A stretch of 64,000 nucleotides of DNA, from assembly GCA_024743175.1 (NCBI GenBank), contig JANSXA010000002.1, positions 248,001 to 312,000 on the forward strand, read 5' to 3'. Positions 37,151 through 43,419 of the stretch are shown one piece after another. This DNA comes from Pseudomonadaceae bacterium. Lineage in GTDB: Bacteria; Pseudomonadota; Gammaproteobacteria; Pseudomonadales; Azotimanducaceae. The notes below the pieces were generated by a model that searched no databases, had not been told where the DNA came from, and saw only the letters and a list, made by a program, of their open reading frames with translations. How positions within the stretch are numbered: the stretch's first letter is position 1; each line of letters begins with the position of its first letter. Position numbers and translations under genes: made by a program.

Positions 37151-39175
37151 ATGTCACGTCGAATCCTGGTGACCAGCGCACTGCCTAATGCTAATGGCCC
37201 GATACATCTTGGCCACATGCTGGAGCATGTGCAGACAGATATCTGGGTGCGCTTTCAGCGCATGCGCGGTCATGAAGTCATTTATGTGTGTGCGGACGAT
37301 ACCCACGGTACCGCTACCATGATCCGTGCCGAGGAAGAAGGTGTAGATCCTGAAACGCTGATCGAAAAGATGCGCCTGGATCATCTGCAGGATTTCAACG
37401 GCTTCAACATCAGCTACGACAATTATTACAGCACCCATTCGGATGAAAACCGCTATTTCTCCGAGCTGATCTACAATCGCCTGAAAGACAAAGACCTGAT
37501 TTTTACGCGCAGCGTTGAACAGCTGTACGACCCGGAGAAAAATCTGTTCCTGGCGGATCGTTTTGTTGTGGGTGAATGTCCCAAGTGTGGCGAACCCGGC
37601 CAGTATGGTGACAACTGTGAAAAGTGCGCTGCCACCTACGACGCCACTGATTTGAAAAATCCTCGCTCAGTGTATTCGGGCGCAAAGCCAGAATTGCGTG
37701 CCAGCGACCACTACTTCTTCGATCTGCCGCAATACACCGACTTCCTGAAACAGTGGACCCGTTCAGGAGCTGTGCAACCGGAGGTCGCCAACAAACTGTC
37801 TGAGTGGCTGGACGCGGGCCTGAAAGCCTGGGACATATCACGTGATGCGCCCTACTTCGGCTTTGTCATTCCCGGCACTACAGACAAATACTTTTATGTC
37901 TGGATGGATGCCCCCATTGGGTACATGGCCAGCTTTAAGAACTACTGCGACAGCAGCAATGAAGTTGTGTTTGACGATTTCTGGTCACCGGACAGCAGCT
38001 GTGAGGTGCACCACTTCATTGGCAAGGACATCATCAATTTCCATGCGCTGTTCTGGCCTGCAGTCCTGGACGGCTCGGGTTTCCGGCCGCCCACGCGCAT
38101 TCACACGCACGGCTTCATTACCGTAAACGGCACAAAGATGTCGAAGTCACGCGGCACCTTCATTAACGCAGCTGATTACCTGAAATTTCTTGATCCGGAA
38201 TATCTGCGCTATTACTACGCGACTAAATTAAACGGTTCATCCGACGATCTGGACATCAACCTCGAGGACTTTGTGCAACGGGTGAATTCCGATCTGGTGG
38301 GCAAAGTCATCAATATCGCCAGCCGTTGCGCTGGCTTCATCAACAAACAGTTCGATGGCCTGTTATCCGATCGCCTTCACGATGAAGATTTATGGCAACA
38401 GTTTATTACTGCTGAAAAAACCATCGCTGATTTTTACGAGGTTGACGATACCAGTAAGGCCGTGCGGGAAATCACACGCCTTGCAGACCTTGCCAACCAG
38501 TACATCGCCCAGCATGAACCCTGGAAGCTGAACAAAGACGCTGAGCGACGCGAAGATCTGCAATTGATCTGCAGTCAGGCCATCAACATGTTCCGCAGCC
38601 TGGCCATTTATCTGAAACCCATTCTGCCGGAGATGGCAAAGAAATCTGAGGCATTCCTTAACGTGGCTGAACTCAAGTGGTCCGACCACAGCACGCCGCT
38701 GCTGGGCCACAACATCGGCGCTTTCAAATCCATGCTGACCCGAATGGAGATGAAGACCGTTGATCAGCTTGTTGCGGCATCTGCCGAGGATAGCCCAAGC
38801 GATGCCAAAGCAGACAGTGAAGTACCGGCTACTGAGGTTGAGGAAGACAAGCACATCACTATTGATGACTTCACCAAGGTACAACTGAAAGTAGCTAAAG
38901 TTATTGCCGCCACGCCAGTTGAGGGCGCGGACAAGCTGCTGCAGCTGACACTGGATGTTGGAGACCACCAGCGCCAGGTCTTCTCGGGCATCAAAGCCGC
39001 TTACAAAGCCGAAGATCTGGTGGGTCGGCTGACCGTTGTGGTCGCCAATCTGGCACCACGAAAAATGCGTTTTGGTGTCTCCGAGGGCATGGTGCTGGCA
39101 GCCGGACCCGGCGGTGAGGATATTTTTCTGCTCTCACCGGATAGTGGCGCCACACCCGGCATGGACGTCAGCTAA
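37151..39175 (+). CDS. metG: Methionyl-tRNA synthetase
   Basis: The 674-residue class I enzyme shows [19 protein letters not shown] (HIGH region), a zinc knuckle with two CxxC pairs ([17 protein letters not shown]), and [10 protein letters not shown] (KMSKS). A C-terminal tRNA-binding EMAP/Trbp111-like domain (about 570-674; [19 protein letters not shown]-like GIKAAY) allows dimerisation. An acidic linker rich in Ala, Ser and Glu separates the halves. It lies upstream of rnf with 21 bp between. Confidence 0.97.
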
Positions 39176-39196: not shown

Positions 39197-39775
39197 GTGG
39201 CTGAGCTAGGACTTCTGCTGATAGGCGCGCTGTTGGTGAACAACTTCGTGCTGGCGCAATTCCTCGGTCTGTGCCCGTTTATGGGCATTACCCGGGGGTA
39301 CGACACCGCCCTGGCAACCGGCCTGGCCACGACCTTTGTCCTGACTCTGGCGGCGACACTGTCCTACCTGCTTTACCATGGCGTGCTGGTACCATTGGAC
39401 CTCACCTACCTGCGCATCATTCTGTTCATCGTAGTGATTGCCGGCGTGGTCCAGCTGGTGAAATATTATCTTCAAGCCACCTCACCGATTCTGCATCAGT
39501 TACTGGGTATCTACCTGCCCCTGATCACCAGCAACTGCGCAGTGCTGGGCGTTGCTCTCCTGGCAGTCAATCAATCTCTCACGCTTCTGCAAACCATGGT
39601 ATTCAGCATCGGTGCGGCCGGTGGCTTTACCCTGGTAATGGTACTGTTTGGTGCCATGCGCGAGCGCCTGCAGCACGACGGCATACCACAACCTTTTCAA
39701 GGTGTGCCGATTGCGCTGATCAGCGCAGGCATCATGAGCCTGGCGTTTATGGGTTTTCAGGGGCTGGCCGGATGA
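39197..39775 (+). CDS. rnfA: Electron transport complex subunit RnfA/RsxA
   Basis: A six-helix membrane protein of 192 residues with [19 protein letters not shown] at the N-terminus and [16 protein letters not shown] in the middle, both hallmarks of RnfA/NqrE. The conserved Cys of LGLCP and SNC are thought to hold the intramembrane [2Fe-2S] cluster shared with RnfE. The start is GTG with GGGAG upstream. It opens the rnf operon and its TGA overlaps the ATG of rnfB. Confidence 0.95.
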
Positions 39776-40680
39776 ACTGGTTCACACCGCTATTGCTGAT
39801 GGCTGCGCTGTTGTTGTTTGCCGCCGCTCATCTGCTGCTGCAGCGGCGCTACCCACGCAACCCGCAATCGCTGGTGGATCGTATTGATGCCATGCTACCG
39901 CAGACCCAATGTGCTCAGTGTGGCTATCCCGGCTGTCACCCGTATGCCCAGGCCATTGCAGAAGGGGCCAGTCTGAACCTATGCCCTCCGGGTGGACGCG
40001 CGGTGCATCGGCAGCTGATCGAACTGATGGGTGGCGAAACGGGTGGCGAAGCTGAACCAACGCCACAACCCAATGTACCCGCGGTTGCAGTCATCGACGA
40101 AAGCCGCTGTATCGGTTGTACCCTGTGTTTACCGCCGTGCCCGGTGGACGCCATAGTCGGTGCAGGCAATCTCATGCACACGGTTATCGAAGCAGAATGT
40201 ACCGGCTGTGAGCTCTGCATACCGGCCTGTCCTGTGGACTGCATCTCCCTGCAGCCCACAACAGCAAACCAGGCAGCCCAACCCAGGCCGCGCAAACGCC
40301 CGACACGGCAGGCTGCCGTTACAGCAGAGCCACGAGCCTGCATCAACTGTAGTCACTGCAACCCGGTATGCCCGGTGGCTTTGCCTGCCCAGGAATTGTT
40401 CCAGCTGGTGTCTCACCAGCAGATCGAGCGCGCCGTCGAGTCTGGCTTGAATGAGTGTATCGAATGCGGTCTATGCGACCGGGCCTGTCCCAGCGACATC
40501 CCTATGGCTGACCTGTTCACCAGCGCCAAACAGGAACTGTTGGCACACAGTGCAGATGAGGCCGCGAAAACCCACTACAGGAAACGCTTTGAGGCGCATC
40601 AACATCGCGAACAGCAGGCGCAGGAGGCAGCGGCCGAAAAGCGTGCACAGCGCCTGAAAAAAGCAGGGCGTTGGTCATGA
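39772..40680 (+). CDS. rnfB: RnfB fused to an RnfC-type C-terminal ferredoxin module
   Basis: The 302-residue protein starts with a membrane helix (residues 4-24) and the RnfB cluster motif (Cys47, 50, 55, 71 in [15 protein letters not shown]..., CPPGG). It continues with a two-cluster ferredoxin domain (Cys113/116/119/123 and 143/146/149/153). Normal RnfB ends soon after this at about 170-195 residues. Here a basic linker (170-185) leads to two further motifs, Cys190/193/196/200 ([12 protein letters not shown]) and Cys229/232/235/239 ([16 protein letters not shown]), then a charged helix. These match the C-terminal part of RnfC, including the charged tail. No separate rnfC exists in the operon. 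The ATG overlaps rnfA's stop. Confidence 0.88.
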
Positions 40681-41612
40681 AAACCCATCAGATCATGATC
40701 TGGGTAATGATCGCTTTTTTGCCTGGCCTGGCAGCCATGACTTACGTCCTGGGTTTCGGCGTGGTGTGGAACCTGGCTATCCTGAGCTTTGCCTGTGTTC
40801 TGTGCGAGGGCCTGATTGCGCTCGCAAAGGGTAAGTCTTTATCCACAGCGTTGTATCAGTTAAAAGATTGCACCGCCCTGCTCACCGCCTGGCTGATCGC
40901 TATCTGTCTGCCGCCTTTCTGCGAGATCAGCATGCTGCTCATTGCCGCGATCTCTGCCATCGGGCTGGCCAAGCAGGCTTACGGCGGTCTGGGACACAAC
41001 CTTTTCAACCCCGCCATGGTGGGCTATGCGGTTGTGCTGGTATCGTTTCCACAGGATCTGGCCAACTGGCCGGCACTTGCCCAGGCCAGCCCTGATGCAC
41101 TGAGTGGCGCAACACTGCTGACTGAGTTCCGGTATCGTCAGGGGCTGACCACCGAGGAATTTGTGATCACCTTTGGCCAGGCCATAGGTGATCAGAAGCT
41201 GATTGTGTTCAGCTTCCTGATTGGCGGACTTCTGCTCACTTATCGCCGCCTGCTGGCCTGGCGCGTTCCGGCAGGCATGTTTGCAGGATTGTTATTGGCC
41301 AGCTTGTTTGGCTATGACGCAGGCTCCTCTGCGAGCCTGGGTTCAGCCTGGTTCCACTTGACTACCGGTGGCTTCATGGCTGCAGCGTTTTTCATTGCGA
41401 CCGATCCCGTCACCCATCCTCGTGGCGCGAGGCAACAGATCATCTTCGGGTTAACGGTTGGTAGTCTGATCTATCTGATCAGGGGTTTCGGTGCCTATCC
41501 AGACGGCATCGCGTTTGCCATCCTGTTTGCCAACTGCCTGACGCCTTTACTCAATCGCCTGAACCTGGAAACACCGGGCCCAGCGCGTCAACGTCCTGCA
41601 TCCGATGTCTGA
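40677..41612 (+). CDS. rnfD: Electron transport complex subunit RnfD/RsxD
   Basis: A 311-residue polytopic membrane protein with [22 protein letters not shown] and the covalent-FMN motif SGAT (in DALSGATLL), plus [11 protein letters not shown]. These are RnfD/NqrB landmarks. It is about 40 residues shorter than E. coli RsxD, mainly between helices. The ATG at 40677 overlaps the rnfB stop codon; a TTG at 40671 is less likely. In other gammaproteobacteria rnfC lies between rnfB and rnfD; here there is no room for it. Confidence 0.92.
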
Positions 41613-42126
41613 CATCAGCCTGCTCAAAGTCTTCACGCCATTGCTGATCATAGGCGGCCTGTGTGGTGCTTTGCTGGTAATGACTGATCAACTGACGGCA
41701 CCCGATATACAAGCCAATCGTGAGGCGCGAACCCGGGCACTGCTCGAGGAAATGTTGCAGCAATCATTGCCGGCGCAGACAGAAATCGATGCTGACATTT
41801 TTGGTTCGTGCAGCGAATGGTTGTTCGTCCGTACACAAACCACAGGTTACGCCGGCCCGATTTACCTCACAGCGCTGTGGCGCGCTGGTCTGTCCTCTGA
41901 GGACACTGAAGGCCTCAGCTTGCGCGTGGTCGGCCATCAGGAAACACCAGGCATCGGGGACTTTATTGACCACGCGCGCAGCCCCTGGATAACCGACCTG
42001 GACAATTCAAGCGCCCGGGCCTACGCGCAACTGGATGCTGTCAGCGGCGCTACAATTACCAGCAATGCGATCAGGCGCGCCGCAGGTCAGATATTCAACC
42101 AGGTGGAGGTATTCTGTGAGCAGTAA
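41605..42126 (+). CDS. rnfG: Electron transport complex subunit RnfG/RsxG
   Basis: This 173-residue protein has one N-terminal membrane helix (LLKVFTPLLIIGGLCGALLV) and a periplasmic FMN-binding domain. In that domain HQETPGIGDFID is followed by the flavinylation motif SGATIT, whose Thr takes covalent FMN. E. coli RsxG has 206 residues, so this copy is compact. It overlaps rnfD by 8 bp and rnfE by 11 bp. Confidence 0.92.
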   Translation: MSDISLLKVFTPLLIIGGLCGALLVMTDQLTAPDIQANREARTRALLEEMLQQSLPAQTEIDADIFGSCSEWLFVRTQTTGYAGPIYLTALWRAGLSSEDTEGLSLRVVGHQETPGIGDFIDHARSPWITDLDNSSARAYAQLDAVSGATITSNAIRRAAGQIFNQVEVFCEQ

Positions 42127-42778
42127 TACGCAGGTGCTGCGTCGTGCAGTACTCACGCAAAACCCGGCATGGGCTCAGCTTCTGGGCCTGTGCCCGTTAA
42201 TGGCAGTGAGCACAACGGTGGTCAACGCCCTGGGACTGGCCGCGGCCAGCAGTTTTGTTGTGATCGGTAGCAACGTGATGATTTCAAGCCTGCGGCATCA
42301 CATTCCGGAGCAGGCCCGACTGCCGTGCTTTGTGTTGATCATAGCCACGTTCACGACGGTAACCACGCTGGTGCTGGAGGCTTTCAGCTACGAGCTTTAT
42401 CTCAAGATCGCTCTGTTTGTACAGATCATCGTCACCAACTGCATGATTCTCGGGAGGGCTGAGGCTTTTGCCAGCCGCCAACCTGTGATTCCAGCCTGTT
42501 TTGACGCAGTGGGCACAGCGGTAGGGTTTGCCATTGCGCTGATCACCCTCGGCAGCGTCAGAGAGCTGCTCGCATACGGCTCCCTGTTCAGAGATGCAGA
42601 CCTGCTGTTTGGCCAGAGGGCTGGGCAGTGGACTCTGCAGTTGGTGGAAACCGGGCCTGTGCCCCTGGCAGCCTATGCACCAGGCGCGTTTATTGTTGCT
42701 GGTCTGATGTTTGCGATGATCCAAGGGATTAGCCGGCGACACCCTGATGTTAAAAAGCCCGGCATTGAAGGAACTTAA
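42116..42778 (+). CDS. rnfE: Electron transport complex subunit RnfE/RsxE
   Basis: The protein has VLTQNPAWAQLLGLCPLMAVS at the N-terminus and VTNCMILGRAEAFAS in the middle, the RnfE/NqrD signature with the LGLCP and NC cysteines matching RnfA. The GTG at 42116 is chosen because AGGTGGAGG lies 6 bases upstream and it matches the family N-terminus. The product has 220 residues and about six helices. It is followed by nth after 2 bp, the standard rnf-nth junction. Confidence 0.94.
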   Translation: MSSNTQVLRRAVLTQNPAWAQLLGLCPLMAVSTTVVNALGLAAASSFVVIGSNVMISSLRHHIPEQARLPCFVLIIATFTTVTTLVLEAFSYELYLKIALFVQIIVTNCMILGRAEAFASRQPVIPACFDAVGTAVGFAIALITLGSVRELLAYGSLFRDADLLFGQRAGQWTLQLVETGPVPLAAYAPGAFIVAGLMFAMIQGISRRHPDVKKPGIEGT

Positions 42779-42780
42779 TC

Positions 42781-43419
42781 ATGAACGCAGACAAACGCGA
42801 ACAGATCTTTGCACGCCTGCAGGCGGAAAACCCGAACCCGACCACCGAGCTGAACTACAACAATGCTTTTGAGTTGTTGATTGCAGTGATTCTTTCCGCC
42901 CAGGCTACTGATGTCAGCGTGAATAAAGCCACCGGTCCGTTATTCAGCGTAGCCAATACCCCTGAAGCGATCTACAGGTTAGGCGTGGACAAACTGAAGG
43001 CCTACATCAAAACCATAGGCTTGTTTAATACCAAGGCAGCCAACGTCATCAAGACCTGCAAGATTCTGATGGAAGAGTACAATGGAGAAGTCCCCGAGGA
43101 TCGGGAAAGCCTGGAAAAACTACCCGGTGTCGGGCGCAAAACCGCCAACGTCATTTTGAACACAGCCTTTGGCCATCCAACCATAGCCGTAGACACCCAC
43201 ATTTTCCGTGTCGCCAACCGTACTAAAATTGCGATGGGCAGCAATGTGCTGCAAGTGGAAAAAAAACTCTTGAAGGTAGTGCCCGAGATGTACAAACGCG
43301 ATGCTCATCACTGGATGATCTTACACGGGCGCTATGTCTGTGTGGCTCGCAAACCACGCTGCGGAGCCTGTGGCATCGAAGACCTGTGCGAATTCAAAGA
43401 TAAAACTGACATTGAATGA
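42781..43419 (+). CDS. nth: Endonuclease III
   Basis: The 212-residue DNA glycosylase/AP lyase has the helix-hairpin-helix and catalytic Lys in LPGVGRKTANVIL, the catalytic Asp in VDTHIFRVANR, and a C-terminal [4Fe-4S] loop with Cys spacing x6-x2-x5 (CVARKPRCGACGIEDLC). It removes oxidised pyrimidines. It ends the rnf operon, an association kept across gammaproteobacteria, and converges with murI. Confidence 0.97.
   Translation: MNADKREQIFARLQAENPNPTTELNYNNAFELLIAVILSAQATDVSVNKATGPLFSVANTPEAIYRLGVDKLKAYIKTIGLFNTKAANVIKTCKILMEEYNGEVPEDRESLEKLPGVGRKTANVILNTAFGHPTIAVDTHIFRVANRTKIAMGSNVLQVEKKLLKVVPEMYKRDAHHWMILHGRYVCVARKPRCGACGIEDLCEFKDKTDIE

Follow-up and report, generated by a model that had tools for sequence, protein, structure and literature searches.

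The window, by which we mean the whole 64,000-nucleotide stretch of DNA analysed here, encodes a protein in which a proteobacterial RnfB continues in frame, after a linker, into the two-[4Fe-4S] domain and the long helix of RnfC. The architecture is widespread and recurrent and is no accident of one genome. It suggests that an Rnf pump without its NADH part now trades electrons with different partners. The complex is a variant of the known Rnf complex, and our searches of open-access literature turned up no account of a protein built in this way.

Architecture of the fusion protein

The RnfB part consists of an N-terminal transmembrane helix, an FeS cluster domain and two ferredoxin clusters, in that order. 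Its score with the NCBIfam profile TIGR01944 was 204.7 bits over residues 10-171, against a cut-off of 68.7, and the fusion scored below the cut-offs of the narrower RsxB equivalog profiles of NCBIfam. The match to the RnfC/RsxC profiles was confined to the C-terminal end, and the NADH/FMN and SLBB domains are absent. The protein is not a full-length RnfC, as it reached 63.3 bits with TIGR01945 (cut-off 245.95) and 85.3 bits with PRK05035 (cut-off 345). An earlier note, made from the letters of this DNA, had proposed a deletion or fusion by which RnfC lost its NADH/FMN and SLBB parts and its ferredoxin end became attached to RnfB. The profiles, with borders at residues 10-171 for RnfB and 182-297 for RsxC, and the synteny of the locus support this proposal. 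The positions of the gene, its parts and its neighbours are given in Table 1.

The earlier note had also counted 20 cysteines in five motifs. There are indeed 20 in the motifs (Cys47/50/55/71, 113/116/119/123, 143/146/149/153, 190/193/196/200 and 229/232/235/239), but the total is 21, with Cys157 lying outside. All 21, of which 12 are the RnfB cysteines, are invariant in alignment A1 (22 rows, the window protein and 21 orthologues), and so are R272, H276, R279, R291 and R294 of the C-terminal helix. Describing the protein as a five-cluster RnfB is right as to the motifs, yet the number itself is not unusual, since the RnfB of C. tetanomorphum has six clusters according to a review (PMC12174285).

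Profiles, alignment A1, the PDB search, motif spacing, the model and Foldseek all identify the tail as the two-cluster RnfC domain with its long helix. Residues 187-302 alone gave 87.9 bits with RsxC and 36.2 bits with GlpC, the best family outside RnfC/RsxC. The two tail motifs are spaced 39 residues apart, as in 47 of the 56 separate RnfC matches and 52 of the 89 fusions; together with the profiles, this bears out the reported match of the extra motifs, their spacing and the tail to the end of RnfC/RsxC. In the PDB sequence search, the best match of the tail was A. vinelandii RnfC (chain residues 365-477, E 1e-11), and the polyferredoxin FwdF was a close second (E 1.6e-9). The AlphaFold model was middling (mean pLDDT 71.1, pTM 0.38) and its domain arrangement is unreliable, while the 53-residue C-terminal helix was confidently predicted. 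The top five Foldseek matches were RnfC chains (best E 2e-3, probability 1.00, none reaching E 0.001). A chance likeness to generic ferredoxins, an outcome that by the earlier note would have refuted its proposal, was rejected, because RnfC came out on top in the profiles, the PDB search and Foldseek alike.

Table 1. Features of the rnf locus in the window
Feature	Position	Strand	Basis and remarks
metG	37151..39175	+	ORF list; upstream neighbour, conserved in most loci reaching that far
rnfA	39197..39775	+	PRK05151 253.4 bits, cut-off 240; ATGA overlap with the fusion start
rnfB/C fusion gene	39772..40680	+	302 aa; translation and NCBIfam
RnfB part, residues 1-171	39772..40284	+	TIGR01944 at residues 10-171; transmembrane helix 4-26 in the model
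RnfB/RnfC linker, residues 172-181	40285..40314	+	Gap between profile borders; pLDDT <50 at residues 173-199
RnfC-derived tail, residues 182-302	40315..40677	+	PRK05035 RsxC, residues 182-297 = profile 361-476
Tail cluster motif 1, Cys190-Cys200	40339..40371	+	Invariant in alignment A1
Tail cluster motif 2, Cys229-Cys239	40456..40488	+	Invariant in alignment A1
Long C-terminal helix, residues 245-297	40504..40662	+	Model; comparable to A. vinelandii RnfC helix
rnfD	40677..41612	+	TIGR01946 261.1 bits, above cut-off; short N-terminus without SPH arm
rnfG	41605..42126	+	TIGR01947 68.7 bits, below cut-off 102; Pfam FMN_bind; SGATIT motif kept
rnfE	42116..42778	+	PRK12405 240.7, above cut-off; TIGR01948 208.6, just below; GTG start
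nth	42781..43419	+	ORF list; downstream neighbour, conserved in most loci reaching that far

The locus and its genome

The order of the locus is metG-rnfA-rnfB/C-rnfD-rnfG-rnfE-nth, and the fusion occupies the usual position of rnfC. ATGA overlaps flank the fusion gene on both sides, with rnfA and with the rnfD start at 40677, and no frameshift was seen at the fusion locus. As expected of an Rnf complex, RnfA, RnfD, RnfG and RnfE are present with the [2Fe-2S] cysteines and the flavin-attachment threonines. Following the literature, we take these threonines of RnfD and RnfG to carry FMN. The operon is not a Na+-NQR, having neither NqrF nor a cofactor-free NqrA. An RNA family search across the window gave no match.

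No full RnfC was found with the RnfC profile in the window's genome (98.17% complete, 18 contigs). At E 0.001, the profile matched only the fusion and one weak NqrA-like protein, and no NuoF-like protein was among these matches. The weak match is a 448-residue ORF on another contig that was read by eye as NqrA; it is followed by ORFs read by eye as nqrB, C, D and E, and the one read as NqrB also gives the expected weaker RnfD match. The second RnfC-profile match would thus be explained by an operon that reads as nqrABCDE.

Distribution among relatives

The first sample held 58 genomes, 37 of the same genus and 21 from other families of the order. Of the 37, 25 matched both halves of the fusion, and one more match, in G031, is cut by a contig end. 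An RnfC above the cut-off was present in 0 of the 37 genomes of the genus versus 20 of the 21 from other families. With G059 added to the 25, at least 26 genomes of the genus are fused.

In the family sample (n = 120), 100 genomes matched at E 1e-25 or better and 20 gave no match. The fused form was present in 63 of the 120: 58 by a both-half match, G393, G417 and G341 by a partial match with the ORF seen, and G376 and G359. The other 37 matching genomes have an RnfB without a detected fusion; one of these, G421, is cut by a contig end. The order sample (n = 293) gave eight genomes, the window's own included, in families f1, f15, f44 and f47, and the class sample (n = 369) gave seven, the window's own and six in f137, f139, f156 and f181, at a threshold of E 1e-52 that would miss weaker fusions. 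These two samples place the fusion in nine genomes of seven other families. The fused loci examined numbered 91, one per genome, and 82 of these belong to the family, where they are spread over 19 genera. L261 was counted as fused because it is one ORF whose two domain matches merely overlap slightly. The earlier note had left to a survey of related genomes whether the same architecture occurs elsewhere, and the survey answered with wide and repeated occurrence.

Most fused loci keep rnfA, rnfD, rnfG and rnfE. At L276, L286, L287 and L289 no rnfD stands next to the fusion; a loss of the gene was rejected, as rnfD was found elsewhere in those four genomes. Among 64 other fused genomes tested, an RnfC above the cut-off was absent from 61 and present in three on another contig; the hidden full rnfC that the earlier note had allowed for was thus found neither in the window's genome nor in these 61. 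The three (G352, G411 and G365, at L290, L291 and L292) carry a second operon, with a full-length rnfC followed by rnfD, G, E and A, beside the fusion.

Intermediate forms and recurrent origin

The same locus in the family shows RnfC in graded states. It is near-canonical in g147 and G391, separate but worn in g23, g25, g134 and others, and without about its first 115 positions in most of g24, g144 and g124. The N-truncated forms keep the glycine-rich FMN/NADH loop for the most part, while other residues, for example the ECEPY tyrosine and the two methionines of GGPMMG, have mostly disappeared; for this reason, the N-terminal part of RnfC seems to go first. Genus g149 holds three forms, namely separate, long-fused and short-fused. 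The long fusion at L221 (G359, ORF 703-2994), in which RnfB is followed by an N-truncated RnfC with the glycine-rich loop still present, is an intermediate form.

A separate mini-RnfC was observed in g125 (L225, L245, L246 and L247). It is an ORF of 179-194 residues from stop to stop that holds the two-cluster RnfC end alone, between rnfB and rnfD. The HMMs gave no match for rnfA, rnfG or rnfE at these loci.

The tree of RnfA, RnfB, RnfD and RnfE comprised 145 rows (90 fused, 53 separate and 2 not counted) and requires at least 10 state changes. When 30 uncertain or redundant rows were left out, the reduced tree gave 8, and a single clade for the 63 fused rows of the family was rejected on it by the AU test (p-AU 6e-38). 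The number of origins rests on these two trees, both quick LG+G4 searches with many open forks, and the counts do not separate gain from loss; we read the changes as fusions because regain of a lost NADH domain is unlikely. The fusion would then have arisen several times, probably by in-frame deletion between adjacent rnfB and rnfC.

Two genomes of one genus in family f15 give the clearest single case, with the states before and after fusion. G050 has separate RnfB and RnfC, G205 has the fusion, and the two are sisters with 100% SH-aLRT. The G205 tail is 75% identical to the RnfC of G050 over 109 aa, and the next best separate RnfC reaches 45%. In the G205/G050 alignment, RnfB leads at its end directly into the segment that immediately precedes the first RnfC cluster. 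This pair further backs the deletion proposed in the earlier note.

The state of RnfD bears on the order of events. In C. tetanomorphum, RnfC encloses the N-terminal arm of RnfD (PMC9588780). The SPH motif of this arm was kept in 18 of 19 rows from other families, in 1 of 33 separate rows of the family and in 2 of 82 fused rows. We considered the loss of the arm as a consequence of fusion and rejected this, because relatives with a separate RnfC have lost SPH too. Among the separate forms, GGxHP of RnfC and SPH of RnfD are both missing in 33 of 34 family rows and both present in 16 of 19 others. This joint loss suggests that the RnfC body had become loose before its deletion.

Signs of a working complex

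Of the 91 fusions, 88 carry an intact set of the FeS motif and four CxxCxxCxxxC motifs. Two of the three incomplete ones lie at contig ends; L188, the remaining one, has three of the four motifs. In ungapped fused rows, the alignment counts gave the two RnfA cysteines in 82/84 and 85/86 and the first RnfE cysteine in 48/49; the second RnfE cysteine, by pattern count alone, was present in 43/49 fused, 25/25 family separate and 11/12 other-family rows. The threonine of RnfD was kept in 81/82 and that of RnfG in 75/75 ungapped fused rows. In 17 close pairs, dN/dS was 0.03-0.20 for the RnfB core; for the tail it was 0.05-0.19 in 16 of the 17, one value being saturated. Core and tail of the fusion are under purifying selection.

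Some loci depart from this pattern. L284 (G523, f137, 1482-2399) holds an RnfB-RnfC-tail fusion without a transmembrane helix between metG and nth, with no rnfA, D, G or E beside it and no RnfD in the G523 genome. G291 has the fusion and RnfA, and its RnfD match is only below the cut-off. Because of the missing RnfD match in the one and the sub-cut-off match in the other, we conclude that the fusion persists without the pump in some lineages, where it must act independently of it.

Two further loci were recorded. L043 (G044, f9), read by eye, has metG, an RnfB-like ORF, a 615-residue ORF that joins RnfD and RnfG, and nth; no rnfA, rnfC or rnfE was noticed by eye in its ORF list, and an RnfD match was found in G044. 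L226 (G349) has no rnf matches between metG and nth other than rnfB and a divergent rnfD.

Proposed mechanism and alternatives

In solved Rnf complexes, electrons pass from ferredoxin through RnfB, RnfA/E, RnfG and RnfD to the two RnfC clusters and then to FMN and NAD (PMC12174285, PMC9588780, PMC11889175). The RnfC clusters bridge the riboflavin of RnfD and the FMN of RnfC (PMC12174285). In C. tetanomorphum, the RnfC ferredoxin domain comprises residues 359-435, and the nearer cluster, RnfC-2, lies 11.7 A from the RnfD riboflavin (PMC9588780).

From the computed architecture, recurrence, selection and ligand conservation, we infer docking, direction, partner and pumping as follows. With about an even chance of being right, the best reading is an Rnf whose NAD(H) port has been removed and whose electron path to the cytoplasmic surface is kept, probably to serve a soluble one-electron carrier. 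The relay from RnfB through the [2Fe-2S] cluster of RnfA/E and the FMN of RnfG to the FMN/riboflavin of RnfD would be intact and would still pass electrons to two RnfC-type clusters under RnfD, and the long helix kept in the fusion would hold these clusters in position. Loss of the NuoF-like domains would expose the cluster from which FMN usually receives its electrons, and NAD(H) may be replaced at this point by a soluble one-electron carrier (a reductase domain, a flavodoxin or a ferredoxin). In that case the pump would connect two soluble carriers, and the ion gradient might serve, for instance, to drive electrons uphill from a donor of milder potential to a low-potential ferredoxin.

More tentatively, the fused forms may make up a recurrent, convergent Rnf class without NAD(H) use, an ion-coupled carrier-to-carrier oxidoreductase between two soluble pools. 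Both ends of the relay would then be ferredoxin-type clusters on one polypeptide, which makes the machine a carrier-to-carrier oxidoreductase in that reading; as part of it, and just as tentatively, ferredoxin:ferredoxin and ferredoxin:flavodoxin variants are conceivable.

It is rather unlikely that the NAD(H) function is supplied in trans, by a separate diaphorase that docks on the RnfC-type clusters of a still NADH-linked Rnf. These two clusters normally exchange electrons with FMN, so the tail could serve another flavoprotein, and three fused genomes retain a second, complete RnfC. However, the other 61 of the 64 lack a full RnfC above the cut-off, and in the window's genome the RnfC profile at E 0.001 finds the fusion and the NqrA-like protein alone, a search outside which unrelated reductases such as ferredoxin-NADP reductase would fall.

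Equally doubtful is a decaying Rnf, in which the fusion would be a step in the loss of the complex and the polyferredoxin would be kept as an electron buffer or for another partner. The graded loss of RnfC in relatives fits this, as do the G523 fusion without an RnfD match and the G291 fusion with RnfA and a sub-cut-off RnfD, and no Rnf was detected in some of the genus, e.g., G021 and G023, both >90% complete. Purifying selection on core and tail, the retention of cluster and flavin ligands in nearly all rows and the repeated arrival at the same end product argue against it. Among the genomes of the genus without a detected Rnf, most give only the weaker, NQR-type RnfD match and three give none. 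RnfH was tried as a marker of the fused form and was uninformative, being present in 34 of 40 genomes of the genus, including G021 without a detected Rnf.

An Rsx-type system that keeps SoxR reduced and for which the NADH module is dispensable is improbable. Rsx and RseC of E. coli are taken to reduce SoxR (PMC12174285), and the window's genome has SoxR. In the genus, however, SoxR was found in 9/40 genomes and RseC in 0/40, the window's own included and although many keep Rnf, against at least 26 fused genomes; SoxR reduction is therefore not the general role, and the system is not assigned to Rsx/SoxR. An assembly or sequencing artefact that hides rnfC can be dismissed for practical purposes, as we found nothing in its favour, the same architecture stands in the 91 genomes examined, including the single-contig genome G393, and the fusion gene in the window overlaps rnfA and rnfD in frame.

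The coupling of ferredoxin to NAD is what Rnf is known for, and repeated loss of the NAD(H) port would, if true, come as a surprise to specialists. If a marine family has repeatedly removed exactly the NAD(H) module, the pumping core must use another terminal partner, and the pump would be separated from its best-known chemistry. The fusion tail would then be a natural minimal RnfC of two clusters and a long helix, and before/after pairs would be available for probing the role of the RnfC body.

Comparison with known systems

Neither an RnfB-RnfC fusion nor an RnfC-less Rnf was named in the titles and abstract openings of the open-access papers that our searches listed. In excerpts of that literature, the term RnfBC denotes two genes or subunits, except in PMC11887813, where it goes with an Rnf2 variant. 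The Rnf2 of Desulfobacteraceae has altered RnfB/C domains and still serves the NADH pool (PMC11887813). It links the ferredoxin and NADH pools, unlike our reading of the fusion, in a comparison based on a brief description that leaves room for a closer likeness (PMC11887813). The Rnf of Methanosarcina is similar in its expected electron transfer to a non-NAD partner, with a multihaem cytochrome (PMC12174285), but it keeps RnfC and adds the cytochrome.

Na+-NQR is likewise a relative of Rnf with changed electron entry and exit; its NqrA has lost the redox cofactors, and the part of electron entry has passed to NqrF (PMC4014512). Na+-NQR kept the RnfC-like body as the cofactor-free NqrA, whereas the fusion lost the body and kept the clusters, and the operon read as nqrABCDE is separate in the window's genome. 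The orphan RsxB of Betaproteobacteria is an RnfB kept without the whole complex and, to our knowledge, is not fused to an RnfC tail; in contrast, most fused loci keep the membrane genes.

A. vinelandii RNF1 and E. coli Rsx, which are Rnf/Rsx ferredoxin:NAD+ oxidoreductases of Proteobacteria, are also among the closest known systems. The long helix of A. vinelandii RnfC contacts RnfB and RnfH, and its exact function is not yet understood (PMC12174285). The likeness covers the locus order apart from rnfC, the membrane subunits, the cluster and flavin ligands, and the RnfC ferredoxin domain with its long C-terminal helix, which the fusion keeps. In contrast to those systems, the fusion is without the NADH/FMN, SLBB and barrel domains of RnfC, what remains of RnfC is covalently attached to RnfB, and RnfD has no SPH N-terminal arm.
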